This document shows positions 25,147-59,690 of a DNA stretch of 64,000 nucleotides, piece by piece (the first letter of the stretch is position 1; the number at the start of each line of letters is the position of its first letter). A program made the translations under genes and the position numbers. Under the pieces are notes generated by a model that was not told the origin of the DNA, did not search any database, and worked only from the letters and a program-made list of their open reading frames with translations. Source of the stretch: Candidatus Saccharimonadota bacterium (lineage in GTDB: Bacteria; Patescibacteriota; Saccharimonadia; Saccharimonadales; Saccharimonadaceae); the NCBI GenBank assembly GCA_015655045.1, contig JAATFU010000005.1, forward strand, positions 1-64,000, written 5' to 3'.

Positions 25147-25211
25147 AAATAGTTACCCCCCAAACCTAATTATGCGCCTGAGTAATATTGATTACTGTTA
25201 TCATAGGATTA

Positions 25212-26603
25212 ATGGATAAAGATGCTTCTGATACGCCTAAAAAGGATAAGCCACCTACGCCGATAGTCAAGCAGGACCTTAAGGATCGAAGCCCTGGAGA
25301 TCAGCTGGCTACTCTAATTATAAGAGCTGGCGCACAGCTGCGTAAGCATATTAAATGGTCCAACGATAGTTACCATATGGTCTATGGGGCAAATAGTGGC
25401 GACCCTAAAGGCTATTACCTATACGGCGTACTCAATGAGGTTGAGAAGGCATGTTTCTCTATGATGCAAGCTGCTGATTGGGTTAAGGAAAGCGAAGAAA
25501 GCTATAATTCTAAAGAATTCAACGAAGAAGAGCAGCGGATAAACGATAATTTACTCCAGTCTAAAATAGATGAACTTTCAGTTTGGGAGCGAAAAATGAC
25601 TGAGCTGATAGTAGCTCTAGTAGGCTTCCGTAATTCTAATGAGGAGAACTATTACAGGCATTTTCTAGCTGTTCACGAATTACAAAACTTAACGTATTCC
25701 CAAAATGACCTTTCAGAATACTATGGCATGCAGAGCGAGAACTATGCTTACCAACAGCGGGAACTGCATGATGTAATTGACCGAATTGCGGCAGAGCTTG
25801 ATGTCGCTAAAACCTGGTATGTTGAAAAGACTCGCGGGGGAGTACTTAAGCGCAAGCTGCAAAATTTTAATAAGCGTTTTGAATATGCATTCGAAATGAT
25901 GGAAGAGCAACTACGGGCTACCCTAAGGACGCAGTACTTATCTTTTGGAAGTCAAAGTAGCCACATCCATGTCGGCACGGTTTCACACGATAGAAATTTA
26001 GATTTGAAGGATGTTTCGGCACATGTGGGCAGGATAGGAATGCTCACAATGCACGTAGTTGTGCTTGTGAAAGAATTGCTTGGTGCAGAGGGTGACGGCG
26101 GTGCGATTAAAACTTGTACTCGTATTATCAATGAGAATGACTACCCAGTAAACCTCCACCGAAGAAGGACCAATCCGGACGTGACTATTGGTGATTTTGT
26201 CGTAGCAGGCGGAGATTTAGCACAAGTAGTAAATGTTAATACTAGCGAAAAATACGGCTTTAAATCTTTTAGAGTTTGCTTCCTAGAGCGTGAGCCATTG
26301 CCGGGGATTACTGAAGATGAGTTTGTGGGAGAGCATATTCGTAAAATATTCCGTGGCGAAGATTTAATAAAACAAACAGCTGAAATGACTAAAAAGTTAA
26401 ATCCAGATGCCAAGCCGTCAGACGAAGAAATAAATCAGTTGATGCGTGAAGGCATAGTACTCGAATGGAATAATGGCTTGAAGGAGTACGCGCTTAATCA
26501 GCCTGGTGGTAAAGAAAAGCTGGAAGCATTCCGCTATGAGATGAACAAACAGGTCGCTCCAATAAAGGACTTTATAGAAAACACCAAGAAACAAAATGAT
26601 TAG
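25212..26603 (+). CDS. Unknown protein of the island
   Basis: 464-aa ORF with its own promoter (TATCAT 7-8 nt before ATG); helical; LSFGSQSSHIHVG motif weakly reminiscent of DUF5677-like proteins. Confidence 0.7.
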   Translation: MDKDASDTPKKDKPPTPIVKQDLKDRSPGDQLATLIIRAGAQLRKHIKWSNDSYHMVYGANSGDPKGYYLYGVLNEVEKACFSMMQAADWVKESEESYNSKEFNEEEQRINDNLLQSKIDELSVWERKMTELIVALVGFRNSNEENYYRHFLAVHELQNLTYSQNDLSEYYGMQSENYAYQQRELHDVIDRIAAELDVAKTWYVEKTRGGVLKRKLQNFNKRFEYAFEMMEEQLRATLRTQYLSFGSQSSHIHVGTVSHDRNLDLKDVSAHVGRIGMLTMHVVVLVKELLGAEGDGGAIKTCTRIINENDYPVNLHRRRTNPDVTIGDFVVAGGDLAQVVNVNTSEKYGFKSFRVCFLEREPLPGITEDEFVGEHIRKIFRGEDLIKQTAEMTKKLNPDAKPSDEEINQLMREGIVLEWNNGLKEYALNQPGGKEKLEAFRYEMNKQVAPIKDFIENTKKQND

Positions 26604-26717
26604 TAAATAATTAGCTCTTTAATCTTATTTAATGAAGGAGTGGTAGCTATAGCGGGAACGCTGGTTAAACTGCCGTCTATTAGCGCGAAAAAAAGTTTAA
26701 GTAGGTTCTGTAGCTCC

Positions 26718-26756
26718 GCACCAGATTTTCGTTATACATAAAAAGTCCCACGACAG
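26718..26756 (+). repeat. Direct repeat copy 1, tRNA-end-like att-type sequence
   Basis: GCACCAGATTTTCGTTATACATAAAAAGTCCCACGACAG. Confidence 0.7.
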
Positions 26757-26780
26757 AGGACTTTTTGCTATCATTAGGCA

Positions 26781-27740
26781 ATGGATAGAATCTTAAACTC
26801 AGTGGAGCAAGTTGTTGGAAGAAGTAGACACGTCTCAATTAACCAACGTGCACTCGAAGCATTTGCAGATACTATAAAACCCGAAGAGTTAGCAGATGTG
26901 CCACCGTTCTTTGAGAAAGATGACAATCTTTCACTTGAGCAAAGTATCGCCTTCGGATTCGTATACAATGCAGTCAACTTTTCTTATTGGGGCAACCCAA
27001 AATGGACGATTAATATAGATAGTGAAGATTATGATGGCGGCAGTGCAATGTTGCGAGCTGTTCAACGTGGAATCAAATCTGGGTATGATTTACTATCCGC
27101 TGAGTATCTGCGTACGATTTCAGAGGAAGACTTGCAACACATTCTTCAAGCCAACATTGAGATTCCTTTATTTTCTGAAAGACTCGCACGACTTCGAGCA
27201 CTCGGTGAGCATATAGCGACGCATTACGATGGTTCTTTTACGGCATTTGTCGATAATGCCGAATGGGATGCGGTGAAGCTAGTTGAGCATCTCGCTGACG
27301 AGATGCCTGCGGTCTATAACGACGAAGAGAGCTATAAGAGCTTGCTAGTAAAGTTCTATAAACGAGCACAACTTCTGCCTTCGCACTTACATGAATTAAA
27401 GCAACTCGGTATATCTACACATGATGTGACAAGTATGGATAAGTTAACTGCCCTTGCGGACTACAAAATCCCGCAGCTACTCAGAAAATATGATGTGCTT
27501 CAATACACCCCCGATTTGGCTAGTAGAATAAATAACTTAACAGAAATACCTGCTGGAAGCGAAGAAGAGGTTGAGATTCGAGCAATGACCGTATGGGCGG
27601 TTGAACTCCTTGCTCGACATTTGAAGGACAATGCTCTACCTGTAACTGCTATTCAGATAGATCACATGTTATGGCTTCGTGGTCAGCAAAAATTACCTGA
27701 TGACAAGCCTTATCATCGTACGAGAACTACCGCATACTAA
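26781..27740 (+). CDS. Queuosine salvage protein, DUF2419 / queuosine-5'-phosphate N-glycosidase (Qng1)-like
   Basis: FGFVYNAVNFSYWGNPKWTI, GGSAMLRAVQRGIKSGYDLLSAEYLRTISEEDLQHILQANIEIPLFSERLARLRALG match the family pattern. Confidence 0.82.
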   Translation: MDRILNSVEQVVGRSRHVSINQRALEAFADTIKPEELADVPPFFEKDDNLSLEQSIAFGFVYNAVNFSYWGNPKWTINIDSEDYDGGSAMLRAVQRGIKSGYDLLSAEYLRTISEEDLQHILQANIEIPLFSERLARLRALGEHIATHYDGSFTAFVDNAEWDAVKLVEHLADEMPAVYNDEESYKSLLVKFYKRAQLLPSHLHELKQLGISTHDVTSMDKLTALADYKIPQLLRKYDVLQYTPDLASRINNLTEIPAGSEEEVEIRAMTVWAVELLARHLKDNALPVTAIQIDHMLWLRGQQKLPDDKPYHRTRTTAY

Positions 27741-27742
27741 TC

Positions 27743-27865
27743 CTTTTTAATCTAATAAATTATCACCGTTATCTTTTCTGGCAGCTTCAACATCTCGGCG
27801 TGATTGATACCCGGTAACTCAAATGGATTCTTAAGAAGGTAATCAAAAAGTTTGAGAAGATTCTA
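27743..27865 (-). pseudogene. Truncated C-terminal remnant of an unidentified gene
   Basis: Minus-strand reading LLKLFDYLLKNPFELPGINHAEMLKLPEKITVIIY* with a stop and direct repeat copy 2 immediately upstream. Confidence 0.4.
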
Positions 27866-27872
27866 TTTCGCT

Positions 27873-27909
27873 GCACCAATTTTCGTTATACATAAGGAGT
27901 CCCGACAGT
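27873..27909 (+). repeat. Direct repeat copy 2, tRNA-end-like att-type sequence
   Basis: GCACCAATTTTCGTTATACATAAGGAGTCCCGACAG; matches copy 1 almost throughout. Confidence 0.7.
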
Positions 27910-27972
27910 GAAGGCTTCTCGTATTCGTAGGTGCTCATGCTTGCAAAAATAACTCAAATCCCTCATAAATAG

Positions 27973-28003
27973 CGGTAATCTCCACATCGTGTGGAGATTA
28001 CCG
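27973..28003. repeat. 14-bp perfect inverted repeat with 3-nt loop
   Basis: CGGTAATCTCCACA-TCG-TGTGGAGATTACCG. Confidence 0.85.
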
Positions 28004-28038
28004 AGGAATCGGGTGAACCTCAAGAGAGAGGTGATGGC

Positions 28039-28566
28039 ATGACCATCAAATTAGTACCGATTAGCGCCAACCGCATCGATGTCTCGGGCATCACAGACAT
28101 CGAGCGAGAACGCCTGAAGGTTACGTTCAAGGACGGCCGCGAACTTTACTTCCTCTACGATCCTCACTCGACCAGCATCGTTGTCGACGTCGATCCGTTC
28201 AAGACGGGTCTCGGTGATGCACGCAGGCTCAACAAGGAGCTGTTCGAACGGTTCCGCGTTCGCTATGCCCGAAACCGGATGAAGCGACTGGTCGACGGAC
28301 TCCACAAGTTCTTCGACCCAAACTTTCACGTACCGTTCGACAGGTGGACGATCGATCGGCTCTTCAGCGAGTTCCGCATCGAACTTGGTCTCGGCAACGA
28401 GGTCCGCGACTGCGGTCTCGCGGTCGGCGTTCACCTGTGGGTGACGTACGGTACCCGCTACAGCGACCCGATACCGGACTTTATCCCCTGGGGAAAAGTC
28501 GAATCGATCGAGTCCGTCATGCTCGAACCCACCCCAGTAAACCTGGCGGTGCGGAACTACGCATGA
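28039..28566 (+). CDS. Hypothetical protein, high-GC, likely foreign
   Basis: MTIKLVPISANRIDVSGITDIERERLKVTFKDGRELYFLYDP; SD GAGAGAGGTGAT; codon usage GC-rich relative to surroundings. Confidence 0.75.
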   Translation: MTIKLVPISANRIDVSGITDIERERLKVTFKDGRELYFLYDPHSTSIVVDVDPFKTGLGDARRLNKELFERFRVRYARNRMKRLVDGLHKFFDPNFHVPFDRWTIDRLFSEFRIELGLGNEVRDCGLAVGVHLWVTYGTRYSDPIPDFIPWGKVESIESVMLEPTPVNLAVRNYA

Positions 28567-28588
28567 CAAGCCCGCACCCGTGGATGAG

Positions 28589-28641
28589 AGAGCCCGACAG
28601 AATTTGTCGATGAGCCGCTCATCGATGGGTCGGGCTCTTTT
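28589..28641 (+). terminator. Intrinsic terminator of high-GC gene
   Basis: AGAGCCCGAC...GTCGGGCTCTTTT. Confidence 0.85.
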
Positions 28642-29616: not shown

Positions 29617-29745
29617 GTGGATGATTATACAGGAGTTGGTCGATGCGCAGATGCTACGAATAAAATTACATGCTTCGTCTAGTTTTATAGGGCCGCCCAT
29701 CCCCTGCGGTTGTTGCACCTCACCTGGGTATGCTTTAATAGTGAC

Positions 29746-30213
29746 ATGAAACAAGTGTGGGCAAAACAAAAAGGTTTCACTATTGTTGAATTGTTAGTCG
29801 TTATTGTCGTGATTGCAATCCTGGCTGCGATTACGATTGTGGCGTATGGAGGGATATCGGAGCGCGCAAAAGTTGCGCGTGCAAATGATGACTTAACCCA
29901 ACTCAGTAAGGCAATCCAAGTTGCTCGACTCAACACAAATCAAACTCTCATACAATTGACAGGCAACAGTTGTACACGGTGTGGAGATACGGACGGTACA
30001 CGTATAGCTGCGTCGATTGCAAAGATTGAGGCCGCTTCAGGTACGAACCTGAGTAGCCTCAAGGTAGGAGATCCATGGGGTAACCCTTACTATATGGACG
30101 AGAACGAAGGGGAGAACGGCAGTTGTGCAAATCATGATTCTATCTCGCTGACAGTTACACATACTGGCGTTAGTGGAATCTCCATACCCTTTTATTCCTG
30201 CCCTGGTGGCTAA
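29746..30213 (+). CDS. Type IV pilin-like protein (copy A of shared N-terminal module)
   Basis: MKQVWAKQKGFTIVELLVVIVVIAILAAITIVAYGGISERA; TATGCTTTAAT just before ATG. Confidence 0.92.
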   Translation: MKQVWAKQKGFTIVELLVVIVVIAILAAITIVAYGGISERAKVARANDDLTQLSKAIQVARLNTNQTLIQLTGNSCTRCGDTDGTRIAASIAKIEAASGTNLSSLKVGDPWGNPYYMDENEGENGSCANHDSISLTVTHTGVSGISIPFYSCPGG

Positions 30214-33962: not shown

Positions 33963-35852
33963 TTATCCTCTGTAAGGTGTTATGGATTTAGCCACACCAT
34001 TCTGATTAACATAAAGAGGGCCAAGAGGCAACAAGATGGACGCTGATGCCTGCAGCCATAGTCGTGCCAACGAGTGCACACCCTGAACCTTTGGATGTAC
34101 CCCGTCGACAAGCTCATTCTGATGATTTGCAAAATATTGATATGCTTTAGTATCGCCTAGATATACAGACGTGCCATTTATTAGCGTAAGAAGCTGTGTT
34201 GCGTAAGACTGAATCCGTGCAGTGCTCATTTCGGAAAAATCATTACTAAATGACCCTGGTAGGGTATAGGTTGGCATATTTAAAATGACCTTGAAACCGC
34301 TAGCGGTGAGATTACCCACGATACTTGTCATATTTGACAGGTATGTCGTCGGACTAATCGACAGGCTATCCTTAGAGTCATTCGCCCCTAACATAATAAA
34401 GACGTGCGTAACCCCCATGCTAGTAAATGCCGTCTTTGCATTAATAAATTGTGACGTTGCCGGTAACCAATTCGCTGTTGTTTGCCCACTTGCTGCCGCA
34501 TTAACAAGAGTTACATTTCGTGAGCCAGCTATAATACTTAGCATATTCTGCAAGGCACTTGATGGATTGATAGTTCCCCCTGTCGTCGCCAGTTCTGTGG
34601 GCGTATAGATACTAATTGAGTCACCAATAAATCCAAGGGTTAATGACAGCGCATCTGCCCGTGTGTTAATTGCATATTGGCCTGTCGTGGCAGTTACCGA
34701 CAGCGAATCAGTAACTCGTAATTTATAGAAATACAATGTATCGGCTAGCAAGTTCGAGTCTGACAATATTAAGCTAGTCGCAGATGAGATGATATTATCA
34801 GCTCCCGGTGTAAAACTTGCTACCGTGCTACGATACCACTGATACGTCAATGTACCCGTACCGCCACTTGCGGCCGTAGCAGAAAGAGAAATTAAGGTTG
34901 GCCCTTGCGAGACCGTACTAATTGTCCCAATGACAAGTTGTTGAGCCGATGCCGTATAGCTTATTGATGAAGGATCGGTAAGTCCTCCATTATTACTCGT
35001 CGAGAGAGTCTTCATACCACTTGTACTCGGAGTATACGTTACTGTTACTTGTTGAGTGCTTGAACTTAGCTGGATGGAAGAGGGGCTAAAGGAACCCCCG
35101 CCTCCATTATCGGTGGGTGTGAATATCGTCGGGTCGACAGGAGGAATAGAGCCCGCAGGGGTTAAGGCAAGTGTAAAGGGGGCTGAGGCTGTATTTACAA
35201 TTCCACTCGTTGGACCAATAAAGGTGTACCCTGTTGAGGTTGGGGCACTTTCATTGTACGTAATAACTTGATCGTGCGTTACGGCAAACGAGTGAGAAAG
35301 TCCGAAGGACCCCATAGTAAGAGCTGTGTCTACGATACTCACCGTCTGGATAGCTGCTCCGTCCGGATAGTTGGTCGCAATGTAACACGAGACGGTGAGA
35401 GTTGTTCCAACAACCTTTGCATCAAGTACGTACTGCGTACCTTGAACAAAGGACACGCCCGTATCACTCCCCTGTAGAAGTGTTGTTGAAGTTTGCGCCG
35501 ATCCGTTATACCTATAGATAAAACAACGACGGTTGCCATTTATATACGAGAAGGCATACGCATCGTATGTCGAGGAGTTAGCGCGTAGAAGAATTAGTGG
35601 AACTACCCCACTCGATGCAAAGGTGAACTTGACGACCATACGCTGGTCTGTGCAGTCCTCGCTCGCAGGACGTAAGAGCCAATTGCGAAACACGTTATTG
35701 GTATTTGCTGCATTTAACTTATTGCTCACAATATTATATTGAGAGCCGGCAACGTCCGTCCAGTTATTGCCTACTCCGGTCGTCGTACCTGCTGCACCCA
35801 CACTTGTGTTTGCGCGGCTAAATGTATCATTAATAATCTGAAGTTCAGTCAT
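33963..35852 (-). CDS. SGNH/GDSL hydrolase with N-terminal jelly-roll-like and Ig-like regions, no obvious signal peptide
   Basis: GFIGDSIS, MLGANDSKDS, DGVHPKVQG motifs; N-terminus MTELQIINDTFSRAN. Confidence 0.82.
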   Translation of the reverse strand: MTELQIINDTFSRANTSVGAAGTTTGVGNNWTDVAGSQYNIVSNKLNAANTNNVFRNWLLRPASEDCTDQRMVVKFTFASSGVVPLILLRANSSTYDAYAFSYINGNRRCFIYRYNGSAQTSTTLLQGSDTGVSFVQGTQYVLDAKVVGTTLTVSCYIATNYPDGAAIQTVSIVDTALTMGSFGLSHSFAVTHDQVITYNESAPTSTGYTFIGPTSGIVNTASAPFTLALTPAGSIPPVDPTIFTPTDNGGGGSFSPSSIQLSSSTQQVTVTYTPSTSGMKTLSTSNNGGLTDPSSISYTASAQQLVIGTISTVSQGPTLISLSATAASGGTGTLTYQWYRSTVASFTPGADNIISSATSLILSDSNLLADTLYFYKLRVTDSLSVTATTGQYAINTRADALSLTLGFIGDSISIYTPTELATTGGTINPSSALQNMLSIIAGSRNVTLVNAAASGQTTANWLPATSQFINAKTAFTSMGVTHVFIMLGANDSKDSLSISPTTYLSNMTSIVGNLTASGFKVILNMPTYTLPGSFSNDFSEMSTARIQSYATQLLTLINGTSVYLGDTKAYQYFANHQNELVDGVHPKVQGVHSLARLWLQASASILLPLGPLYVNQNGVAKSITPYRG

Positions 35853-38388: not shown

Positions 38389-38898
38389 TTAATTAGCCCA
38401 ATTCCACCCATTGCCACTCCCGGTATAGCCCCAGTTATTTGTGTAGCCTGCAGTATTACTAAGTATATTACAGGTTGAACTAGTCGTGCTACTCCAAGTC
38501 GGTGTGTATGGCTGGAGTCCGCGAATCGAGCTATAGGAGTACGCCGCCCCAGATTTAGACAGGGCAACCAACACGTACTCAGTAGCATCACCCGATAAAC
38601 AATAAGCCAAGTTATTTATGCCGGCTCCAGTTGAGTAGGCTGATTTAGTAAACTCCATGGTTGACTTAGATGCGAATACTGCTGAAGTAGGATACGTATT
38701 GGAGGTCGTATCGATACGAATAAGCTCCATCTGCTTCCCAAAGTTCTCGAGGTCACTTTTGACCGCCGTGTCATTTGCGCGACCAGATATCCCTCCATAC
38801 GCCACAATCGTAATCGCAGCTAGGATTGCAATCACAACAATAACGACCAGCAGTTCAACAATAGTGAAACCTTTTTGTTTTGCCCACACTTGTTTCAT
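38389..38898 (-). CDS. Type IV pilin-like protein (copy B of shared N-terminal module)
   Basis: MKQVWAKQKGFTIVELLVVIVVIAILAAITIVAYGGISGRA; same promoter/start context as 29746. Confidence 0.92.
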   Translation of the reverse strand: MKQVWAKQKGFTIVELLVVIVVIAILAAITIVAYGGISGRANDTAVKSDLENFGKQMELIRIDTTSNTYPTSAVFASKSTMEFTKSAYSTGAGINNLAYCLSGDATEYVLVALSKSGAAYSYSSIRGLQPYTPTWSSTTSSTCNILSNTAGYTNNWGYTGSGNGWNWAN

Positions 38899-38956
38899 GT
38901 CACTATTAAAGCATACCTCTGAGGGATACCACAACTGAACAGGGTATAATAAGAGT

Positions 38957-47295: not shown

Positions 47296-49680
47296 CTATT
47301 CAGTTAATTTCCCTAAATATTCCCGATTCGACAAGGCGTCACATAAGACCGCCATTTCCTGCACGACAATCTTCTGGATAGAATCTCCTTGGCCGCCAGC
47401 ATCAACCGAGACAGCATCCGGTTCGCCCCCATAGGACCCGGACCGAGCGTAGACACGCACATACTGGGAGCTGATCACTTCATCTAACTTAATATCAAAG
47501 ATCCACTGCTCATCCCAAAATGTCTCACGCTGGGTGCCGGTGTTGAGATAACTATTCCCAAAAAGAAACGACGTAGGAGTCGGTCGGGTGACTGTCTTTC
47601 GAGTAGTCCAATCCGTACCGTTATTGCTTGTTTGGATATCAAAGTCAACAAGCGTTCCGGATACCTGCCACGACTGACCACACCAGAGAATGACTCGATC
47701 GAATCGAGTCGCCCGTTGCCACATCATAACGGCAGAATCGGGTAATGGGGTTGTCCCAAACGCATACCCGGAGTTGTCTCCATATTTGGTAGGCCATTGA
47801 CCATTTCCAAGCTCAGGAGCAGGTTTGCTTGATATTTGGCGATCAATTGCAGCCACAGACGAGCTTACCCATGAGCTTTGCGTCGAGACGGGTGGCCAGT
47901 CATTACAGGTATACACAGTGACGCTAATACCTACGGGCAATCTGAGGTAGACTGGAATATCTCGAACAGGAACTATTACTCTGCCGTTAGTAACGGTCAA
48001 CGTGCTCACATCTCCAAATGAATCTACGTATTCGAGTGCTGAGGCAGAGCCAGTTACTTGAAGTGTGACGGTACAGTTATCCATATGGGAAGCCGCAATA
48101 AAGACTGCCGTAGAGCCGGTCTCGTCACTATAGATATTTCCGACAAAGATTCTATCACCAAGATAGCCAAACGACAGAGCACGATCAAAGGGACGATTAA
48201 AAGTCTCTTCGGCAAGTACTCGCCACAAGGCGGCATCAGGGTTGAGGCTCGTGTCTCGATTAATCCACCACGTCGGAAAGGACCAATAGCCTTGACTCCG
48301 GTCATACCAATACGAATTACGCTCACGTGGAATGCCATACTGTTCCCAGACAAGTGCATGCATGAGTTTTACACGAACTCGGCGGGGGTGATAGATCGCA
48401 TAGACACTACTAAATGCGGCGCCGGCTTCTGTCTGCCAAAGCAATTTGTCTTGTTGCCCGAATTCAACCAGCAGAGCCAAAAACGCCGGGATTGAACTTC
48501 GTGCAATCGCAAGATCCCCGTTCGTCATCGAATTATAATCATGAAACGAGAATCCATCGCACCATGCCCCACCCCCTGCCGCTAAGAATGTACGCCACCC
48601 TGCCGCATCAATACTGACAGGACATGGCCCAATTGCTTGAGCAGCAGCATTACCCTGATGTACATAGCCCTGGAATAGTCGCATTCTCTGCACAGTCTCT
48701 ACGGTCAAACTAGGTTCGTTGATCGGACCTTCAAAGTAATGTACACCGGCAGGATAAAGAGTTTGGACAACCTGTTTCACACCCTGCTTATAAGCATCAC
48801 CAATAGCGGTCGCAGCGATCAGCGCAGCCGTACCATTGTTTCGAGTCCATACGCTAATGTAGGCACTTGCTGCATTGATCTTAGTCTGCGCAGCACCAGC
48901 GTCTGTTATAACGAGATTGTCATACGTCTCAACTGTGGTCGAAGCATCTGGAGACGAGACAGTCACCTTCACTCCCGAGATCGTGCCCGTGGAGAGGCTG
49001 ACAAATGTCGTTGCACCATTGACTTCAGGAGTTTTTGTAATAACATTCAACCAAACCTGTCCAGCCGAGTTGGGAATATTCATCTCATCGATAGTCCGAC
49101 CGGGAAAATTAACCCATTGTTCTCTTGGACGATTTGGCTCAGCAAATGCGGTGTGTACCGGGCTAGCCCAATAGTCGTTTCCATTCTGGATGTCGGTCAG
49201 AAGTGCAGCAATCGTCCCATTTCCAGTGGTTGGGGCATTGGCATTGGTAACCGAGAGACGAGACGTTCCCATGCCAAGTACACCCTTCCCGATAACCTCC
49301 CTTGATGGGTCGGCACTATCATAGAGCGTGCTAGGAGCAGGAAGCTGAGGAAACCGAGAGTCGGGACGAATTACCGAGAAGTTCGTTGCCGCATACGAGG
49401 TTCCGAAAACTGCGTCAGTAGTGGGGCCTGTGAAATAAATTCGATACCAACCAAGCGCCCAGCCTCCAACGGGAGCTATAGGAACAACCGTGACACCCGA
49501 GACAGCGCCTGAGGAAACGACATCACCCTCGTAGTTTCGAACTGTATACGCTGTAGGTCCTGATCCAGATAGGATAATTGTGGGTACGGAACCACCTTTA
49601 TAAAAAACGCCATTGCGGCTCGGGAATGAACAGGATCGATAGTAGGAGGGTACGGGGGCGAGGGGAAACGGAGAAGACAC
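47296..49680 (-). CDS. Clan GH-A-like glycoside hydrolase with C-terminal discoidin-like domain, no obvious signal peptide
   Basis: EGPINEPSL (acid/base), LLWQTEAGAAF (nucleophile); C-terminal WQRATRFDRVILWCGQ...DFDIQTSNNGTDW. Confidence 0.75.
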   Translation of the reverse strand: MSSPFPLAPVPSYYRSCSFPSRNGVFYKGGSVPTIILSGSGPTAYTVRNYEGDVVSSGAVSGVTVVPIAPVGGWALGWYRIYFTGPTTDAVFGTSYAATNFSVIRPDSRFPQLPAPSTLYDSADPSREVIGKGVLGMGTSRLSVTNANAPTTGNGTIAALLTDIQNGNDYWASPVHTAFAEPNRPREQWVNFPGRTIDEMNIPNSAGQVWLNVITKTPEVNGATTFVSLSTGTISGVKVTVSSPDASTTVETYDNLVITDAGAAQTKINAASAYISVWTRNNGTAALIAATAIGDAYKQGVKQVVQTLYPAGVHYFEGPINEPSLTVETVQRMRLFQGYVHQGNAAAQAIGPCPVSIDAAGWRTFLAAGGGAWCDGFSFHDYNSMTNGDLAIARSSIPAFLALLVEFGQQDKLLWQTEAGAAFSSVYAIYHPRRVRVKLMHALVWEQYGIPRERNSYWYDRSQGYWSFPTWWINRDTSLNPDAALWRVLAEETFNRPFDRALSFGYLGDRIFVGNIYSDETGSTAVFIAASHMDNCTVTLQVTGSASALEYVDSFGDVSTLTVTNGRVIVPVRDIPVYLRLPVGISVTVYTCNDWPPVSTQSSWVSSSVAAIDRQISSKPAPELGNGQWPTKYGDNSGYAFGTTPLPDSAVMMWQRATRFDRVILWCGQSWQVSGTLVDFDIQTSNNGTDWTTRKTVTRPTPTSFLFGNSYLNTGTQRETFWDEQWIFDIKLDEVISSQYVRVYARSGSYGGEPDAVSVDAGGQGDSIQKIVVQEMAVLCDALSNREYLGKLTE

Positions 49681-49683
49681 GCG

Positions 49684-51021
49684 TTACCACTCCGTCAGCA
49701 TAATGAGATACGTCGGAGCATTGTCAGTAACTGAGGCTGTGACTGCCACTCCAGCCGCTCCCGTGCCCGAACCCGCACCTGGAGTGCCGGGAGCTGCAAT
49801 ACACGTACCAGTCCAACCAGACTTGTCTGTGGTGTTGATCCAGATGGGAGCGGGAGCACCAGCTCCGCCACCGCCGGCATTCCCACCGGTTCCAGCAGCA
49901 CCATTGCCACCCGATGCATTAAATACACCTTCTCCCTTAAGAATACGCGCGTTAATAATCATGGCACCAGCTCCGCCACCGCCGCCACCACCGGCATTTG
50001 TCCCATCACCGCCGCCGCTTCCCCCGCCGTGACCAGCAGGAATACCACCGCGCTCCGTTCCCATAAGTCCATATCCAGTAAAACGAGTGAATGGGTCGGC
50101 CGTGGTTCCGATAAAGTCCCGCCATGGCTCGTTGTGCCCAATGCCCCCAGCAACCGCCCCTGCATTGCCCGCTCCACCAGCACCAGATCCATAAAGAGAT
50201 TGTGAACCTTGAAAAACGCCAACCGATGCCGATCCCTGAACGCCTGCACCCACTCCTCCGTTTGCTCCGGCACCCCCACCGAATGACGCAGGTACTCCGA
50301 CAGGACCAGCCACTCCACCGGTGGCTCCAACGGCATCTCCTCCACGAGTGGAGACGGTACCGTGATTGGTTAACGTACCAGATACTTGTATTCGGCCGTT
50401 GATAATAATAGTGACGCCCGCAAGCACCGTGAGGTCATGAAATTGTTGAGGACCAGCCCCACTTGCTACACCCGGACCTGCGGCTACTCCTGGGTTCGCG
50501 CCAAATGTATAAACCATACCATTTCGAGTATAGCCAGGAATTGTTGCCGTTCCATCGAAGATTACATCTCTTCCCGCGTGGCCATACCACATATATAGCC
50601 CATCTGCTGGGTGTACGTGATCAGCTCGAGCAGCAGTTCCTGCACTCCCAACATTAGCCGTACCAGCTGATACTGGCAACTCCGATGGTGTCTGGCCATC
50701 TTGTGCAAGGTGTACGAAGGTTGCATCGACCTCATCACGAGGGATAAACTCGGCATCCAAACCATCTCGTGTCGCAGTACTCAGGCCTGCAGGCTCAGCC
50801 CCCATGTCGGTTGCCGAGAGGACAACGTCCGAACTCAAGGGATGCCCCGCAACGGTACGCGTTGCCGGCACTTTCGCTCCAAGATCCGTGGTTAAATTAG
50901 TAACCTTGCCTTGTGGCACATCCTTAAGAGATCCGTCAGCATTATGGGCTTCGCCTAAAAACTCATTCAGGACCGTTCCCCACGTATCCTTATCGCCACC
51001 TGGTTGCGGAAGACGTGCCAC
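49684..51021 (-). CDS. Tail-fibre-like adaptor with glycine-rich distal region (MARLPQPG family)
   Basis: MARLPQPGGDKDTWGTVLNEFLGEAHNADGSLKDVPQGKVTNL; Gly-rich GGGSGGGDGTNAGGGGGGGAGAMI; GTG start, SD AGAAGAGG. Confidence 0.75.
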   Translation of the reverse strand: MARLPQPGGDKDTWGTVLNEFLGEAHNADGSLKDVPQGKVTNLTTDLGAKVPATRTVAGHPLSSDVVLSATDMGAEPAGLSTATRDGLDAEFIPRDEVDATFVHLAQDGQTPSELPVSAGTANVGSAGTAARADHVHPADGLYMWYGHAGRDVIFDGTATIPGYTRNGMVYTFGANPGVAAGPGVASGAGPQQFHDLTVLAGVTIIINGRIQVSGTLTNHGTVSTRGGDAVGATGGVAGPVGVPASFGGGAGANGGVGAGVQGSASVGVFQGSQSLYGSGAGGAGNAGAVAGGIGHNEPWRDFIGTTADPFTRFTGYGLMGTERGGIPAGHGGGSGGGDGTNAGGGGGGGAGAMIINARILKGEGVFNASGGNGAAGTGGNAGGGGAGAPAPIWINTTDKSGWTGTCIAAPGTPGAGSGTGAAGVAVTASVTDNAPTYLIMLTEW

Positions 51022-51320: not shown

Positions 51321-53108
51321 CTACGGTGTTTTGTAAACAGATCGCGTGCCGACAGACCAATTCAGTACATCACTATAGCGATCAACAGGCGAGACTAATA
51401 CATCTTTTGCGCTATAGGTCTGAATATTACGACTATAGACATACTGGGCAGTTGGTTGATACAGCCCAATTGCCGGGACATCACTCAACCACTGTTTCGC
51501 AAAGGTGATGTACTTTGCATTTCTGAGATTTGGCTCAAGTCGGGAGCGAGCGCTTGAGAGTGCGTCGTCGCTAATGCTACTGGCGTAGTTTGAGTAATTT
51601 AGTTGAGTCGTCTGCGATGAATGCCAGTACGCAAACACGTCTGGATCGGCCCCAATTGTAATTTGGTAAAGTAGCACATCGTAATTACGTGGCACTAAGA
51701 TATTCTGAAAGACGTCTTGTGTTACGTCATTTGGATCAACTATCTGGGTATCGACGGATACGCCGATTTGTCGCCACTGACCCGACAGAACCTCAAGGAC
51801 TCGCTCAAATTCACTATTTTTTGTGGTGACAACTGAGAGCTTCAACGTCTCCCCGTTCTTCTTGCGCACCGTCCCATCCAGCACCCAGCCGTCATCCGTC
51901 AATAGCTTGGCTGCGGCGTCTTTATTGTAAGCGGGAGCACTCGGTACATCGCCCGTGAGTTGTCCATTCGTAAAAGGTAAATCAAGTGATGGCGTGGCAA
52001 TTGGCAGAGCAGCTCGAATGGCTTTGGTATCAGTACCAACCTGTAAGGCTTGCCGAACTGTTTTATCGCTTAATAGTTGGCTCTTCGTATTCAGTAAAGC
52101 ATAGACACCACTAGCAATAGGGCTGCTCGTCGCGACGTAGTGACCCAGGTTGACATTCGAAAGGTCAGTTGGTGCGAGATCGGCAGCCGCATTCACTTCG
52201 GCTAAAGCCAGCGCCCGGACAATTGCATCGCGAGACTCGTAGACATGGAGTTGGAAACGGGCGAGTTTAGGTGTGCCGCCATAATAAGTATCATTTCGTG
52301 CTAACTGGACAATCTTTCGTCCCGCACTACTATCAACTGTTTGTGTAAAGCGAAATGTAAATGGACCGCTACCGATTGGGCTGTCGCCGAAACTATTCTC
52401 GCGAATACTCCCTGGGTCAACTGTCCCTAGAATGTGCTGCGGGACGATCGCAAAGGTCAAGGCATACTCGAAGGCGGCATACGGCGCTGGCAACGTAAAT
52501 TGAACGGTTGTATCATCAAGTGCGACTGCCTTAATATCACTCCATCCTGTGATTGTCGAGCGAACACTCGGGTTTTTCATTAAATTCACCGTAAAGGCTA
52601 CATCCTTAGCAGTCAGAGCCATCCCATCCTGCCATTTGGCATCGGGACGAATGGTCACTGTATAGACGGTATGGGTATCATTAATGGCCACTGTTCGAGC
52701 CAGGTCATTATTCAAATGTCCAGAGGTATCATATTGGAGCAAATGTGAAAATAGTAGATCACTGGCCGATTGCTCAGCGCTCGTACTTGCGAAGAGTGGG
52801 TCGAGCGTATTAAGAGGTCCAAGCACACCTTCGGCATAGGTTCCATCAGTTGCCTGGGTGGTATCCATGTAGGTTCGTTGAAACCACATGAGCTGCATAC
52901 CAGTTGCGGCAATCAATACCCCAATGGCAATAATCCAAATAATGATATGCTGGCGAACGTCGCGGACACTACTCCAACGCTTAATAATAAACTTATGAGC
53001 GTGTCGTACGGTCACGTTCTCAACCCGCTTCATGCGTTTTGAGAGATCGCGGCTTGTCAGGCTCAACTTCGGTAACCGATGCCACCCATGACGGTCATTC
53101 TCTGTCAC
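51321..53108 (-). CDS. ABC transporter substrate-binding protein, family 5 (peptide type)
   Basis: TM anchor then YAEGVLGPLNTLDPLFASTSAEQSASDLLFSHL..., KWQDGMALTAKDVAFTVNL. Confidence 0.93.
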   Translation of the reverse strand: MTENDRHGWHRLPKLSLTSRDLSKRMKRVENVTVRHAHKFIIKRWSSVRDVRQHIIIWIIAIGVLIAATGMQLMWFQRTYMDTTQATDGTYAEGVLGPLNTLDPLFASTSAEQSASDLLFSHLLQYDTSGHLNNDLARTVAINDTHTVYTVTIRPDAKWQDGMALTAKDVAFTVNLMKNPSVRSTITGWSDIKAVALDDTTVQFTLPAPYAAFEYALTFAIVPQHILGTVDPGSIRENSFGDSPIGSGPFTFRFTQTVDSSAGRKIVQLARNDTYYGGTPKLARFQLHVYESRDAIVRALALAEVNAAADLAPTDLSNVNLGHYVATSSPIASGVYALLNTKSQLLSDKTVRQALQVGTDTKAIRAALPIATPSLDLPFTNGQLTGDVPSAPAYNKDAAAKLLTDDGWVLDGTVRKKNGETLKLSVVTTKNSEFERVLEVLSGQWRQIGVSVDTQIVDPNDVTQDVFQNILVPRNYDVLLYQITIGADPDVFAYWHSSQTTQLNYSNYASSISDDALSSARSRLEPNLRNAKYITFAKQWLSDVPAIGLYQPTAQYVYSRNIQTYSAKDVLVSPVDRYSDVLNWSVGTRSVYKTP

Positions 53109-53354: not shown

Positions 53355-53747
53355 TTATAGGCCTTCCTTTGCACGGCTTGAACGTAAATCAAGTGCTGCA
53401 CTTACTATATAGTTTACCAGACTCAGCAGCATTCCCGTAAGGATTGAGTTAAAGAATGTCATCGACAGACCCGGCGCAAGTTTCAAAGAGAGATAGACCA
53501 TAAAACCATTCACCACTAAGACAAATAGGCCAAGGGTTAATAAAATGGCCGGCAATGACAAAATAGTAATGATTGGGCGTAGCACTGTGTTGACGATCGA
53601 GAAGATTAGTCCTGCAAACAGGAAGCCAATGATACCGACCGTGGCATGGACATTCTCGTACCCCGTTCCGAGCAAACGAACAGCCACCCATAAGCCAAGC
53701 GAGTTAAGGAGCCATCGAATAATAAATACACCAAATTGCTTTTTCAT
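53355..53747 (-). CDS. Phage holin family 4-like small membrane protein
   Basis: Four TM helices with GLIFSIVNTVLRPIITILSLPAILLTLGLFVLVVN. Confidence 0.9.
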   Translation of the reverse strand: MKKQFGVFIIRWLLNSLGLWVAVRLLGTGYENVHATVGIIGFLFAGLIFSIVNTVLRPIITILSLPAILLTLGLFVLVVNGFMVYLSLKLAPGLSMTFFNSILTGMLLSLVNYIVSAALDLRSSRAKEGL

Positions 53748-53765: not shown

Positions 53766-54965
53766 TCACAACCCTTTACTGAGTGCGCTGCTGAGGTTCG
53801 TGTGGCCCGTCTCGGTAATGAGAATATTGTCTTCGATTCGAACCCCAATACCCTCTTCTGGTACGTAGATACCCGGTTCAACCGTGAGGACCATTCCTGG
53901 CAAGAATTCTGTGGCTCGCCCCAGGCTATCATGCACATCTATTCCAAGCCCATGACTAATAGCGTGCGGAAAGTAACGGCGATAGTCATCGGCAGACGCG
54001 AGGAGATTAAGTTCCGCAAGAGCTGTCTTCATAATCTCATCCACTTGTTCATAATAGGTAGCTATGGAAGCATGTGGCTTTAGAAGCTTAATAATTTTCT
54101 CTTGGGCCTGTTGCACGGCAACATGAATAGCAAGTTGACGCTTCGTGGGTTCTCCATACGCATACGTACGCGATATGTCAGCAGCATAGCCATGGACCCG
54201 CGCACCAATATCAAGCAGCACGAGTTGGCGTGGCTTAAGCTTGGCATTGTTCTCGCCATAATGAAGCGTACAGGCATTAGCACCGCTAGCTACAATCGGA
54301 TCATACGCATGCCCCGTCGCACCACGACGACGAAAAGCATAGCTAAACTCCGCTTCGATCTCGTACTCGTAGTGAAACTCGGGAAGTAATACCTTCACAT
54401 CTGCAAAACTTTGCATTGTCAATTTAATAGCCTTTTTTATAGCCATAATCTCTTCGGGCTGTTTAATTGCACGAAGCTTCGCAAGATCCCATTGACAATC
54501 AAGTACATCTGCAAAGGTTCGCTCTAATAGCCGGTGGAGCTGACGCGGAGCGGGGTTAAGCGTAAAATCAATATATTCAATAAATGAAGGATCACCCAGC
54601 GTGTGAACAACCGTATGACGAGTTGCCAGGTCGTGTAAAAGCGTGGTTGCCTCATCGCGTGTAAGAATCGCCTCGATACCACTTACCGTCTGGGCTGCTT
54701 CGTAGGTCAAACTGCCATCAAAAATCTGATTAACTTCACTTACGTGCGGCGCAACGAGCCATGAGGTATGGCGAGCACCATCAATAATTACCCACCAATC
54801 TGGCGCATCGATTCCCGTCAGCCACCAAAAATTTGCTTCTTGCTCAAACGCAAAAGCGGCATCGGCGCCTCTTTGCATTTGGGTATATGCCGTGAGTATA
54901 ATCAAACCGCCGTGTAGGCTCTGGATTAAACTGTTTCGATTAGATTGGTGAAAGTTTTTTAACAT
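53766..54965 (-). CDS. pepP: Xaa-Pro aminopeptidase (M24)
   Basis: LLDIGARVHGYAADISRTYAYGEPT, HAISHGLGIDVHD, LTVEPGIYVPEEGIGVRIED. Confidence 0.95.
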   Translation of the reverse strand: MLKNFHQSNRNSLIQSLHGGLIILTAYTQMQRGADAAFAFEQEANFWWLTGIDAPDWWVIIDGARHTSWLVAPHVSEVNQIFDGSLTYEAAQTVSGIEAILTRDEATTLLHDLATRHTVVHTLGDPSFIEYIDFTLNPAPRQLHRLLERTFADVLDCQWDLAKLRAIKQPEEIMAIKKAIKLTMQSFADVKVLLPEFHYEYEIEAEFSYAFRRRGATGHAYDPIVASGANACTLHYGENNAKLKPRQLVLLDIGARVHGYAADISRTYAYGEPTKRQLAIHVAVQQAQEKIIKLLKPHASIATYYEQVDEIMKTALAELNLLASADDYRRYFPHAISHGLGIDVHDSLGRATEFLPGMVLTVEPGIYVPEEGIGVRIEDNILITETGHTNLSSALSKGL

Positions 54966-55003: not shown

Positions 55004-55960
55004 CTACTTTTCGGGGGTTAAAGTACCAACCTCATTTGAAAATGCCGCATGCGTACTATCAAAGTCTGCCGTCACTGCTTTAACGTGATAATAATAGACG
55101 GTATGTGGCTTTAGTCCAGTTGACACACCGCCGGTAGCAGTTTGCGTGACATCCTTCTTGTCCTGGGTAAAGTTAATATCAGTTGCCCATTCAATTACAT
55201 AGCTCGTTGCTCCATTTACTGGCGACCATGAATACTCCACCGAAGTAGCGGAAAGAGGTTTTACCTTCAGATTAGTCGGCGAGGCAGATAAGAGAGTTGT
55301 CATCGCGAAGCGAGGTAATGACCAGGGACCTTCCCCCGAACTGTTATTAGCCTTCACTCTTAGGTAGTAGCCCGTACCAGCCTTAAGGTTATTACAACTG
55401 TTTGTTAATTCTGCTGATGTTCTAGTTGATACTATCTCACTAAAATTTTTATCAATTGCACATTGAGTAGTGTAGCTGGCGGTATTATCTGTTGCGAGCC
55501 AGCTTACCCCAATTTGTGTCCCATTAATAAAAGCAATTGTAGGCTTGGGAGCAACTGTCGGCTTAGCAATAGCCGGAATAGCGGGGCAGCTTCCTGGTTG
55601 AGGTACGGATGAGGAGGAAGTAACATAATATTTAATTGACTGATTGGCAATTAAACTTCCTGACACACAGTAAACTGTTCCATCGAATGTTCCTCCGCCA
55701 TCAAGGCGTACTCGACTATCAAACTTGACGTCATTGGGCAACTTGACTGGATATCCATTTCCGTCCTTATCACTTGCTGCGGTCATCGCCGTAGGAATAG
55801 ACCTAAGGACACTCTTCACTTGGTTGATTTGGTCAAGGTGATGTAGTAGGAGTACCATTGCAATTGCTATAACAATTACCACAATGCCGCTTGCAATGCC
55901 TAGAAAGATCTTCTTACGAGAAACTCGTTGAGGTGGCGGAGATTGAAGTGTATATTCCAT
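55004..55960 (-). CDS. Membrane-anchored protein with pilin-head-like region and two FN3-like domains
   Basis: KKIFLGIASGIVVIVIAIAMVLLL TM; CxxGSL...; two FN3-type repeats (GTGYYLRVKANNSSGEGPWS, PHTVYYYHVKAV). Confidence 0.75.
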   Translation of the reverse strand: MEYTLQSPPPQRVSRKKIFLGIASGIVVIVIAIAMVLLLHHLDQINQVKSVLRSIPTAMTAASDKDGNGYPVKLPNDVKFDSRVRLDGGGTFDGTVYCVSGSLIANQSIKYYVTSSSSVPQPGSCPAIPAIAKPTVAPKPTIAFINGTQIGVSWLATDNTASYTTQCAIDKNFSEIVSTRTSAELTNSCNNLKAGTGYYLRVKANNSSGEGPWSLPRFAMTTLLSASPTNLKVKPLSATSVEYSWSPVNGATSYVIEWATDINFTQDKKDVTQTATGGVSTGLKPHTVYYYHVKAVTADFDSTHAAFSNEVGTLTPEK

Positions 55961-55978: not shown

Positions 55979-57450
55979 TTAGTATTTTATAAGACTCAGC
56001 TTCACAATCGATGGTTGGATAATATTAAAGGCTTGTCCTCCACCGGTTGAGCCAGTGACGTCGCCCGTATTATAGGCACCCGGCCCATCACCCGGCGGAT
56101 ACTGCCCAACTGTCGTATAACCTGTAAAGTTTTGATCATCGACCGTTCCGATGGTAAGCGTATGGCTATGCGAAGGCATCTCTGCAATTGTCAGGGTGTG
56201 TGTTTTTTCACCATACTTTTCCCCTATCGTATTAAACTCTGGATCGCTAGAGCTTAAATTAACTGACACTCTTCCTCGTGAATCGGGTAGATTAAATGTT
56301 GTCGAGCCATTGCCTGCACCGTAGGTCGTACCAATAACTGCAAACAAATTAGCGTAGGTCGTCCGCGATACGGCAGATCCATCTTCTGGAAGATAGCCAG
56401 CTTGGGTAGAATTCCAATAGCCCTCAACGGAAGTACCGACCGCTACAGCAGGGTCTGCCGCAACTACGGCTGGTGTTAGCTTAATAGCAACTTTCTCAAC
56501 AATCGACGGTTGAATAGTATTAAATGACTGCCCCCCTCCTGTCGAGCCATAAGTATTAGTAGTTGCATATTGACTTCCCGCATCGGCTGGCGGATACTGG
56601 CCAGCCCCCCCATAGCCTCCCCAGTTCTTATCGTCAGCCGTTCCAATAGGTACTACATGAGAGTGGGCTGGCATCTCGTTAATTGTAAGAATATGGGCAG
56701 TTTCACCATACTTTTCCCCCATCGTATTAAACTCTGGATCCGAAGGACTCAAATTAACCGACGCGTCTCCACGTGAGTTGGGTAGACTAAAAAGAGTCAC
56801 ACCATCACCACCGTCACCATAGGTTTCGCCAATAAGCGCAAATAAATCCGCGTAGGTCGTCCTCGAAACAGCCGCTCCATCCTCAAAAGCATATCCTGCG
56901 GGCGCCGCTGTCCAATATCCATGAATCGAGGTACCTACCGGTAAGGTTGAGACAGTTGGATCAATTGGTTGGTATTTAATGGCAAATTGCTTCACGATTG
57001 ATGGTTGGATATTATTATGTGCTTGATCTCCACCTGTAGCGAGGGTTGTGAGTCCTGGTGCATATGCTCCTGGCCCATCCGATGGAGGATACTGTCCAGC
57101 TATCGTATAGCCTGTAAAGTTTTTGTCATCAACATTACCGATAATCATTTGATGGTTATGCGAAGGTAGTTGAGCCACGGTAAGCGCCACCGTCTTTGCA
57201 CCCACTTTTTGTCCAAGTGTAGCAAAAGAAGAGCCAGGATATGATTGATTTACGACCGTACGGCCCCGCGAATCTGGCAAATTAAAAGTTGTTGAGCCGT
57301 CCCCTGCACCGTATGTTGTGCCGATGACCGCAAACAGGTCAGCATACGTCTGACGAGATACGGCCGAACCGTCTTCTAGCAAAAAACCCTGCGGTGGCGT
57401 TGTCCAGTAGCCTTCAATTGAGGTAGCAATCGGGAGTGATCCGTAAGCGT
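55979..57450 (-). repeat. Three diverged in-frame tail-collar repeats (~0.47-0.5 kb each)
   Basis: Approximate units 56960-57450, 56470-56955, 55979-56445; each ends IIQPSIV and contains an HxH (SHNH, AHSH, SHSH). Confidence 0.85.
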
Positions 57451-58153
57451 TTGTTGTGGTCGTACTGCCATTGTCAGTTGACCCTGTCGACGTGGTTGTC
57501 CAGCCACTCGTACCACTGGCATTTTTTGCATTTACTCGACACCAATAGGTAGTTGTTAATGTCAGCCCAGTTAAGGTTGTGGTCACAGTTGGTGCCGTCA
57601 CGGTAGCAGACTGAAGATTGGTGATAAAACCAGCATCCGAAGCACACTGGACAGTATAGGTTAACGGACTGTTTGTCGAGGCACCCCAAGTAAGGGTTAT
57701 GTTTGTTCCGTTAATATTGGTTATTGCAAGGTTAGACGGTGCACTTGGAGCTGGTGCGTTCGGACGGCTTGCACACATGCCAGTCTGTGCTCCCTTTGAG
57801 CTTGTTTGTGAATCAATATAAAACTTCAAAGTGGTGAGCTGGACATTAGCTGCATCCACACAGTATGTTTTTCCACCATCACTACTGCCACCCGTTAGCG
57901 TATCACCACTACTTGGCGTGAAGGTGGAAGGAACTGTAGCAGGATAAACATTATTGAATGTTCGATAACTTTCCATTGCCTGGGCAGCACCATTTAAATC
58001 ACTCTTGAGCTGGGCGGTAATAGTTTGACTTTTCCAGTTCCCAAAAGACAGGATCGTAATACCCGCGAGAATGCCGATGATAGTAATAACAATGATGAGC
58101 TCTACAATCGTAAAACCAGAGGATTTTGTATGCGAATGATAAAAGCTACTCAT
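55979..58153 (-). CDS. Type IV pilin N-terminus + FN3 + three tandem phage tail-collar domains
   Basis: SSGFTIVELIIVITIIGILAGITILSFGNWKSQ; FN3; three repeats of GTSxEGYW...EDGSAVSRTTYADLFAVIGTTYGAGDGSTTFNLPDSRGR...MPSHSHTLTIG...GGGQAFNIIQPSIV. Confidence 0.9.
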   Translation of the reverse strand: MSSFYHSHTKSSGFTIVELIIVITIIGILAGITILSFGNWKSQTITAQLKSDLNGAAQAMESYRTFNNVYPATVPSTFTPSSGDTLTGGSSDGGKTYCVDAANVQLTTLKFYIDSQTSSKGAQTGMCASRPNAPAPSAPSNLAITNINGTNITLTWGASTNSPLTYTVQCASDAGFITNLQSATVTAPTVTTTLTGLTLTTTYWCRVNAKNASGTSGWTTTSTGSTDNGSTTTTNAYGSLPIATSIEGYWTTPPQGFLLEDGSAVSRQTYADLFAVIGTTYGAGDGSTTFNLPDSRGRTVVNQSYPGSSFATLGQKVGAKTVALTVAQLPSHNHQMIIGNVDDKNFTGYTIAGQYPPSDGPGAYAPGLTTLATGGDQAHNNIQPSIVKQFAIKYQPIDPTVSTLPVGTSIHGYWTAAPAGYAFEDGAAVSRTTYADLFALIGETYGDGGDGVTLFSLPNSRGDASVNLSPSDPEFNTMGEKYGETAHILTINEMPAHSHVVPIGTADDKNWGGYGGAGQYPPADAGSQYATTNTYGSTGGGQSFNTIQPSIVEKVAIKLTPAVVAADPAVAVGTSVEGYWNSTQAGYLPEDGSAVSRTTYANLFAVIGTTYGAGNGSTTFNLPDSRGRVSVNLSSSDPEFNTIGEKYGEKTHTLTIAEMPSHSHTLTIGTVDDQNFTGYTTVGQYPPGDGPGAYNTGDVTGSTGGGQAFNIIQPSIVKLSLIKY

Positions 58154-58208: not shown

Positions 58209-59690
58209 TTACAGGGTTTGCAAATAGGCGTGCAGCTGCTTTGCCCTAGCTGGACCTACAGTCGCTACAATATCGACCTCGGACGCACTTTTTAAGGCCC
58301 GGACACTGCCAAATTTCCGAATAAGCTTTGAGCGAGTCTTTGGACCAATGCCCGGGATATCTTCAAGACTACTAGCGGTTTGTTGAGCGCGTTTTAAGAC
58401 TGTGTGATAGCTCACGGCGAATCGATGCGATTCATCGCGTATCCGTTGTAAGAGCTTAATGATGTGCGTTGAATGTGGTACATTCACGAGCGTAAAGTCA
58501 TCCGTAATTGTCGTGTAGCCATCAAGCTCCTTGAGCTTCTCTTTGCTAAGCACAACGTTAGATCGATCGTGGCTAATAACGATCTGTTCTTCGCGTTTGG
58601 CAAGTCCAATAAAAGGAATAGTCTGCTCGCGTGCATCACGGGCCTTCAGCGCTGCATCGAGTTGCCCCTTGCCACCATCAATTAGAATGAGATCCGGCTT
58701 CCCCCAGGCTTTCAGATTCTTTTCACTGAGCCGACGCATCAAGGTTTCGTTCATATTATAAAAGTCGTTGTTATGTTCGATACGGGTTTTAAACTTCCGG
58801 TAATTTGCTCGGTCTGATACGCCGTTACTAAATACCACCATACTCGCAACCACATTCGTGCCACTCATATGCGAAATATCATACCCTTCGATTCGAGCTG
58901 GAATCTTCTTAAGACCTAGTAGGTCAACGAGATCGCTCAGCGCCTTATCCTTACTGATATCAAGAAATTCCCGATCACCAAACATAATTCGACGCTGCAA
59001 TTCTCGCAGATCATTGAGTTTATTGCGCAATCGAGCAGCATTTTCAAAGTCATGCAATTTCGCGGCAAGTTGCATCTCTTTTTCAATCTCACGTGCTAAG
59101 GCTTTGCGACCACCCTCCATATAGCGAATAAGCTTACGGAGTGTCGCTTTATACTCTTCACTTGCCGTACCCGGTCGAGGCGAAAGGCCCAAGTGAACAT
59201 CGAGGTCGGGACGATCCTTCGTGGGAGCTTTTGTATAATAGGGAAAGACTTTACGAAGGTAACGAAGCGCCTTCTTAACCGCATAGCCGTTATAATACGG
59301 TCCAAAATATTCAGCATTGTCATCGGCTGGGTTACGCGTAAAACTTACGTATGGCCATTCACTTTTCATATCAATACGCACAAACAATTGCGACTTATCG
59401 TCACGAAGTAAGATGTTAAACCTCGGCATGTAGCGCTTGACCATTTCACTTTCAAGAAACAATGCATCAATCTCACTTTCAGTTTCGATCCAGTCGGTAT
59501 CATGAATTTCCGCAACGAGGGCGCGGGTCTTTATGTCCATGTCGCGCGTACTCTGGAAATACTGCCGCACTCGGTTCTTCAGGACCGCCGCTTTGCCCAC
59601 GTAAATGATTTCACCACTTGCGGACTTATGAAAATAAACCCCCGGTGAACGAGGTAAAGTGGCTAATTTTTTCGATAAGGCACTATTCAT
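58209..59690 (-). CDS. uvrC: Excinuclease ABC subunit C
   Basis: GVYFHKSASGEIIYVGKAAVLKNRVRQYF GIY-YIG; C-terminal DISHMSG...LILIDGGKGQL and HhH. Confidence 0.96.
   Translation of the reverse strand: MNSALSKKLATLPRSPGVYFHKSASGEIIYVGKAAVLKNRVRQYFQSTRDMDIKTRALVAEIHDTDWIETESEIDALFLESEMVKRYMPRFNILLRDDKSQLFVRIDMKSEWPYVSFTRNPADDNAEYFGPYYNGYAVKKALRYLRKVFPYYTKAPTKDRPDLDVHLGLSPRPGTASEEYKATLRKLIRYMEGGRKALAREIEKEMQLAAKLHDFENAARLRNKLNDLRELQRRIMFGDREFLDISKDKALSDLVDLLGLKKIPARIEGYDISHMSGTNVVASMVVFSNGVSDRANYRKFKTRIEHNNDFYNMNETLMRRLSEKNLKAWGKPDLILIDGGKGQLDAALKARDAREQTIPFIGLAKREEQIVISHDRSNVVLSKEKLKELDGYTTITDDFTLVNVPHSTHIIKLLQRIRDESHRFAVSYHTVLKRAQQTASSLEDIPGIGPKTRSKLIRKFGSVRALKSASEVDIVATVGPARAKQLHAYLQTL

Follow-up and report, generated by a model that had tools for sequence, protein, structure and literature searches.

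How Patescibacteria choose and hold a host is largely unknown, and the locus described here puts that question in a concrete form: what is a gene that begins as a type IV pilin and ends in phage tail domains doing between housekeeping genes on a Saccharibacteria chromosome? The answer that we favor, and which we hold to be probable, is that it encodes a modular type IV minor pilin displaying a phage-type receptor-binding knob on the pilus of an epibiont.

The gene occupies positions 55979 to 58153 of the window (the whole 64,000-nucleotide stretch of DNA that was analysed). It lies on the minus strand, running from 58153 down to 55979 as a single open frame of 724 aa from ATG to stop; read on the plus strand, the same interval holds many stops. 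All parts of the gene given below are likewise on the minus strand. The product has a class III prepilin signal, a pilin head, an FN3 domain and three phage tail-collar domains in this order, and the Pfam N_methyl, fn3 and Collar matches bear out what a sequence-only reading had claimed. The signal and the start of the hydrophobic helix (58055 to 58126, residues 10–33) match both Pfam N_methyl (E=4e-6) and NCBIfam TIGR02532, each above its cut-off, and cleavage by a prepilin peptidase is expected from the sequence after G13, between SSG and FTIVE, with Glu at +5. The helix and beta-sheet head follow (57755 to 58054, residues 34–133). AlphaFold2 (AF2) modeled this part as a helix at 16–67 and strands at 84–114, with pLDDT mostly 81–93, in agreement with the pilin head proposed earlier; related heads occur at the locus in 54 other genomes. 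By sequence, the pilin part matches pilins in the PDB, with geopilins/PilA as solved relatives of the N-terminus. The FN3 domain (57485 to 57745, residues 137–223) is recognized by Pfam fn3 at 6.8e-11, by AF2 with pLDDT mostly 93–96 and by FN3 matches in Foldseek.

The remainder of the protein consists largely of collar repeat 1 (56993 to 57412, residues 248–387), repeat 2 (56498 to 56920, residues 412–552) and repeat 3 (56003 to 56425, residues 577–717), each matched by Pfam Collar and Gp10_C. Collar (PF07484) covers three stretches at 3.3e-50 and 168 bits against a cut-off of 24, and single repeats searched alone still score 57–74 bits each. Gp10_C covers three stretches in the same places (E=1e-20), and tail protein families in PHROGs match the protein with a best E of 2.8e-101. 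The tail-collar identity of the repeats thus holds, with profile matches far above chance level. Pfam gave no RCC1 match in this protein. Every repeat carries an HxH motif, as had been claimed: SHNH in repeat 1 (57152 to 57160, residues 332–334, H332-x-H334), after which a variable loop begins, AHSH in repeat 2 (56657 to 56665, residues 497–499, H497-x-H499) and SHSH in repeat 3 (56162 to 56170, residues 662–664, H662-x-H664). The ending IIQPSIV, previously ascribed to all three repeats, is found in repeat 3 only; the actual endings are NIQPSIV, TIQPSIV and IIQPSIV. The repeats are spaced 495 nt apart and are not a recent duplication, since their DNA is only 62–74% alike. For most of the collar part, the AF2 model has a pLDDT below 50 (a monomer model built from a shallow alignment), and a Foldseek search with it returned FN3 proteins only. 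The predicted structure supports the pilin and FN3 parts only, not the collar knob.

Could such a fusion have arisen during assembly? The source genome is a multi-contig assembly, a point in favor of a chimera. However, the same architecture and flanks recur in independent genomes of two genera, which argues that the fusion is no chimera, and we give this explanation a negligible chance. A frameshift or assembly join between the pilin and collar parts is excluded, as the gene is one frame inside a 332-kb contig and recurs in independent genomes. Collars are present in 18 of 295 genomes of the same family, 17 as pilin fusions and one (G099) on a phage-like contig. Most of the 17 share both the domain order (prepilin, FN3, three collars) and the site, which reads uvrC, pilin, partner, pepP. 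This count includes the incomplete genes of G148 and G221 (both truncated at a contig end) and of G164 (N gap inside). Left out of the set were G099 (contig L042), G480 (a short contig with a collar frame lacking the pilin part), the long surface proteins of G330 and G359, which have no prepilin signal, and G619, G735 and G749, which have no pilin part. Within the source genome (848 kb), the pilin-collar protein is the sole collar protein.

The collar is not a general trait of Saccharibacteria, an idea that was rejected because any collar at all was found in just 17 of 393 genomes of a class-wide sample and 7 of 380 of a phylum-wide sample, several of them in proteins other than pilins. A scan of a genome collection reached four close relatives, a pilin from Omnitrophica and one protein that is not a pilin. 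Collars are also joined to a different pilin scaffold in G196 and G135. For example, a minor pilin operon of G135 (L045:9309-13430) encodes a PilX-like pilin with one collar as well as a PilW-like pilin with phage minor-tail modules plus LamG. The Candidatus Omnitrophica protein (L174:3482-4429) is a prepilin with one C-terminal collar (Pfam Collar 2.5e-23), in which N_methyl falls just under its cut-off and TIGR02532 lies above its own. This separate fusion indicates that pilins met collars more than once. Frames upstream of the Omnitrophica gene resemble, by reading, pilus ATPase and platform genes.

Most of the fusion loci share one gene order: trhO and uvrC come first, pilin-collar and its partner next, and pepP is then followed by genes for a small membrane protein and a solute-binding-like protein. 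In the window, uvrC (58209 to 59690) forms the upstream border of the locus and a pepP-like M24 peptidase (53766 to 54965, function by reading) the downstream border; both serve as synteny anchors, as do the small membrane protein (53355 to 53747) and the solute-binding-like protein (51321 to 53108), conserved further downstream. The partner gene (55004 to 55960, 318 aa) begins 18 nt downstream of the pilin-collar gene, and all five lie on the minus strand. The partner protein starts with a non-canonical hydrophobic helix, which leads into a pilin-like head and then two FN3 domains (Pfam fn3 twice), and 11 of its members from collar loci were aligned. AF2 predicts a helix, a beta head and two FN3 domains at a mean pLDDT of 86, and Foldseek matches of this model are FN3 proteins only.

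This neighborhood bears directly on a phage-directed role, in which the protein would act as a decoy or would be what is left of a prophage tail gene captured by a pilin, and would play no part in host binding. In its favor, the collars are phage tail domains and their matches are phage tail proteins. However, no phage structural or lysis genes stand beside the gene, its neighbors are housekeeping genes conserved over many genera, the three-copy design and the HxH motifs are kept, and the reading frame is not decaying. We consider a phage-directed role very improbable. A plain prophage gene was rejected for want of phage neighbors. There are also no inverted repeats at the gene, so that shufflon-type inversion was rejected, and no recombinase in the conserved neighborhood.

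The same neighborhood contains no pilus machinery operon, either around the gene or next to it, which lends some weight to a membrane-held surface adhesin. Here the prepilin-like helix would serve as an anchor only (or build a short pseudopilus), and the collars would act at the cell surface without a pilus. The non-canonical signals of the downstream partner and of the PilX-like scaffolds point the same way. Set against this are the cleavage motif, which is canonical, has Glu at +5 and is conserved throughout the locus family, and the lollipop pilin fold predicted by AF2, and we regard a membrane-held adhesin as unlikely. F14, T15 and E18 are nearly invariant across this family. Elsewhere in the source genome there are four PF00437 matches above cut-off, two of them adjacent (pilus-type ATPases), and 27 prepilin motifs.

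What the site holds in relatives turned out to be of more consequence than the single fusion. With uvrC as the anchor, the next 5–7 kb were inspected in most of 87 genomes, and a related pilin was found at the site in 54 genomes besides the source locus, with 14 plain short proteins (119–155 aa) and 31 of at least 300 aa. The long pilins end in many ways. Some carry three collars, while others carry an RCC1 propeller (G051, G065), LamG (G064, G072, G200), Gly_rich_2 (G156, G168 and, by reading, G132 and G180), InlB-type repeats (G186 and others), a Fib_succ_major-like domain (G203), an FGE-like domain assigned by reading (G101, G174), a phage minor-tail/receptor-binding module (the second pilin of G162, PHROGs down to 1e-31) or an unassigned domain (G124, G221). 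RCC1 propellers, LamG, Gly-rich domains, Fib_succ_major-like domains and phage minor-tail modules are recognition folds, and the collar tip is one of many exchangeable tips at a fixed site. A backbone tree of 80 genomes combined pepP with the solute-binding protein and the small membrane protein. On this tree, parsimony requires at least 19 changes of tip class, at least nine of them among 16 members of one genus, and at least six switches between collar and no collar, with classes assigned partly by eye. G212, for instance, has collars and is nested on very short branches with G124 and G221, which share another tip. The distances between pilin heads nevertheless track the backbone (Mantel rho 0.45 in 49 genomes, 0 of 2000 permutations), also within the two collar-bearing genera (rho 0.51, 0 of 2000). 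As the head tracks the backbone while the tips change, the pilin is inherited and its C-terminal end is replaced.

Exchange between close species also weighs on another possibility, namely a minor pilin that takes up DNA or holds on to solid surfaces and is not directed at host cells. Both roles are known for pilins in other systems, and there is a weak ComP_DUS match (E=0.008). This match is under the cut-off, the tips are carbohydrate- and protein-recognition folds whose turnover between close species is needless for uptake, and the second pilus of TM7x has no role in competence (PMC12206443). We therefore judge a role in uptake or surface sticking quite improbable, and return to the host-directed minor pilin.

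The collar repeats were compared across 16 proteins, 43 repeats in all, each divided at HxH into a core (the part before the motif) and a loop (the part after it). HxH is present in all 43. Three repeats are found in 13 of the 16 proteins, two in one and one in two. Cores resemble one another about as much inside one protein (0.671) as they resemble cores at the matching position of other proteins (0.686), whereas loops are 0.574 alike within a protein against 0.312 between proteins. When the loops of repeats 2 and 3 were shuffled among proteins, the observed value for loops was reached in 0 of 20,000 shuffles, also within one genus, while the core statistic was near the null (539 of 20,000 with all 13 proteins and 5,733 of 20,000 within the genus). 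The nearest core was the one at the same position in another species in 24 of 39 cases and one from the same protein in 6 of 39, on which ground a fresh triplication in each species was rejected as the cause of the like loops. The sister species G036 and G198 illustrate the pattern: the N-terminal part up to the collars is 69% identical and the cores 70–86%, and each of the three loops is 24–33% identical. The loop type shared by G000 and G198 recurs in G196, on a different pilin scaffold (beginning GFALPTVLI, no canonical Glu) and in another genus. The behavior of cores and loops shows an old three-copy design whose three loops are replaced as a set, likely by gene conversion among the repeats. 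Together with the copy number, this suggests that the three loops form one binding surface, most simply as a pseudo-trimer. Alternatively, gene conversion could alone explain the likeness of the loops, with no pseudo-trimer.

These observations can be assembled into a working model. A prepilin peptidase would cut the class III signal and the hydrophobic helix would be built into a type IV pilus, with the tip as the simplest position because a 600-residue extension would not fit the shaft. The FN3 domain would act as a spacer. The three tandem collars would fold into one knob, a pseudo-trimer as judged from copy number and loop behavior, in which the three HxH motifs would supply six histidines holding one metal ion, a site to which three separate chains contribute in phage fibers. 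The loop after each HxH may then contact a molecule on the host-cell surface, probably an actinobacterial glycan. The uvrC–pepP locus keeps the pilin and swaps the tip, and close species may differ in binding as a result; the exchange itself is shown above, and its link to host range would be an extension of it. The fuller proposal, to which we give somewhat less than an even chance, is that this fixed Saccharibacteria pilin site is a tip-exchange adhesin locus which recruits phage modules, and that the collar triplet is a pseudo-trimeric six-histidine knob whose loops are replaced together upon a change of host.

Where might the collars have come from? Saccharibacteria live on actinobacteria, and among phage sequences the strongest matches are to tail proteins from Arthrobacter and Microbacterium phages, approximately 44–50% identical over a collar. 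Borrowing from phages of the host actinobacteria would fit these matches, which are not proof of it because such phages are over-represented in the collection. The three phage relatives inspected have one collar per chain, and a long tail fiber, 8kec, is the solved relative of the collars.

Other features of the source genome are of interest in their own right. Prepilin genes at 29727 to 29870 and 38774 to 38917, and also at 927 to 1009 and 51 to 144, share near-identical 5' ends (144 nt, 94%) and have different heads, perhaps a dispersed pilin family that recombines. Several of the 27 prepilin motifs belong to short genes close to contig ends, so the assembly may break in prepilin repeats. 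Two long pilins end in FGE/C-type-lectin-like domains (L185:403-1644, assigned by a weak FGE-sulfatase match, and L198:371-1621, assigned by reading), and the source genome therefore has several differently tipped pilins. On the minus strand, 47296 to 51021 holds two adjacent surface-type ORFs, the second with a weak F5/8C match. The first opens with MARLPQPGGDKDTWGTVLNEFL, a tail-fiber-like start also present in L106 (G330); L210 (G619) has a similar form of this start joined to a collar. A surface-type protein with a GDSL lipase/esterase domain is encoded at 33963 to 35852 (minus strand). By reading, the region from about 15345 to 28600 holds a large serine recombinase beside tRNA-Gly, then type III restriction-modification-like genes and others, and looks like an integrated island.

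For the study of host choice, the locus offers a specific gene whose site is fixed and easy to locate, and any genome sequence reveals its variable end. Sister species that have exchanged tips are predicted to differ in binding, and the exchange suggests a quickly changing hook for host choice. The protein would be a case in which a cellular parasite relies on a recognition module that phages also use, and possibly a one-chain version of a trimeric phage knob.

Modular pilins, in which an extra module is grafted on, have been described as a class: PMC8179133 gives 264 architectures, with FN3 and LamG-type PF13385 among the modules. This qualifies the earlier claim that the architecture had not been described. 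The literature search found no description of a fusion of a pilin to a tail collar, and the passages of PMC10743442 that mention the two do not describe one. The collar triplet, the concerted loops and the tip-exchanging uvrC–pepP site appear new in comparison with the text of PMC8179133.

A related system comes from Nanosynbacter lyticus TM7x, of the same bacterial class, in which the two minor pilins PilX1 and PilX2 carry additional domains at the C-terminus; normal host binding requires PilX2, whose tip is an RCC1 propeller (PMC12206443). Neither TM7x tip contains collars, one being a jelly roll and the other an RCC1 propeller, and these pilins have no predicted PilD signal, unlike the pilin-collar protein. 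An RCC1 tip like that of PilX2 is also found at the uvrC–pepP locus in G051 and G065. As this one site holds an RCC1-tipped pilin in some relatives and a collar-tipped one in others, the collar pilin is taken to serve the role of PilX2 with another hook. With the TM7x precedent and the tip exchange, a pilus-displayed phage-like tip for host attachment, as first suggested from the sequence, is the best-supported reading; assembly into a pilus and binding are what we infer from it.

On the phage side, T4 gp12 is a trimer (PMC3004832), and in trimeric fibers each of the three chains contributes an HxH motif to a metal site of six histidines (PMC6116203). These fibers and the Arthrobacter and Microbacterium phage tail proteins likewise show a collar, HxH and then a variable loop. 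Unlike the pilin-collar protein, the phage collar proteins that were examined are parts of virions, lack a pilin part and carry a single collar in each chain. Among pili, CofB and TcpB are minor pilins with extra C-terminal domains that form trimers at the pilus tip (PMC9565799, PMC5207764); their trimer is made of three chains, in contrast to three repeats of a phage collar domain in one chain. PilV of the IncI shufflon is likewise a type IV minor pilin, and its variable C-terminus sets which recipient cell is bound (PMC9045228). The PilV tip is changed by DNA inversion within one genome, whereas here the change is between species, with no inverted repeats. Finally, PilB and PilC of Streptococcus sanguinis both combine a prepilin with a grafted binding module and have a proposed tip location (PMC8179133), and the metal-dependent adhesion that may operate here can be likened to theirs. 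Compared with the modular pilins covered there, the module in the pilin-collar protein is a phage collar triplet, exchanged at one chromosomal site between close species.
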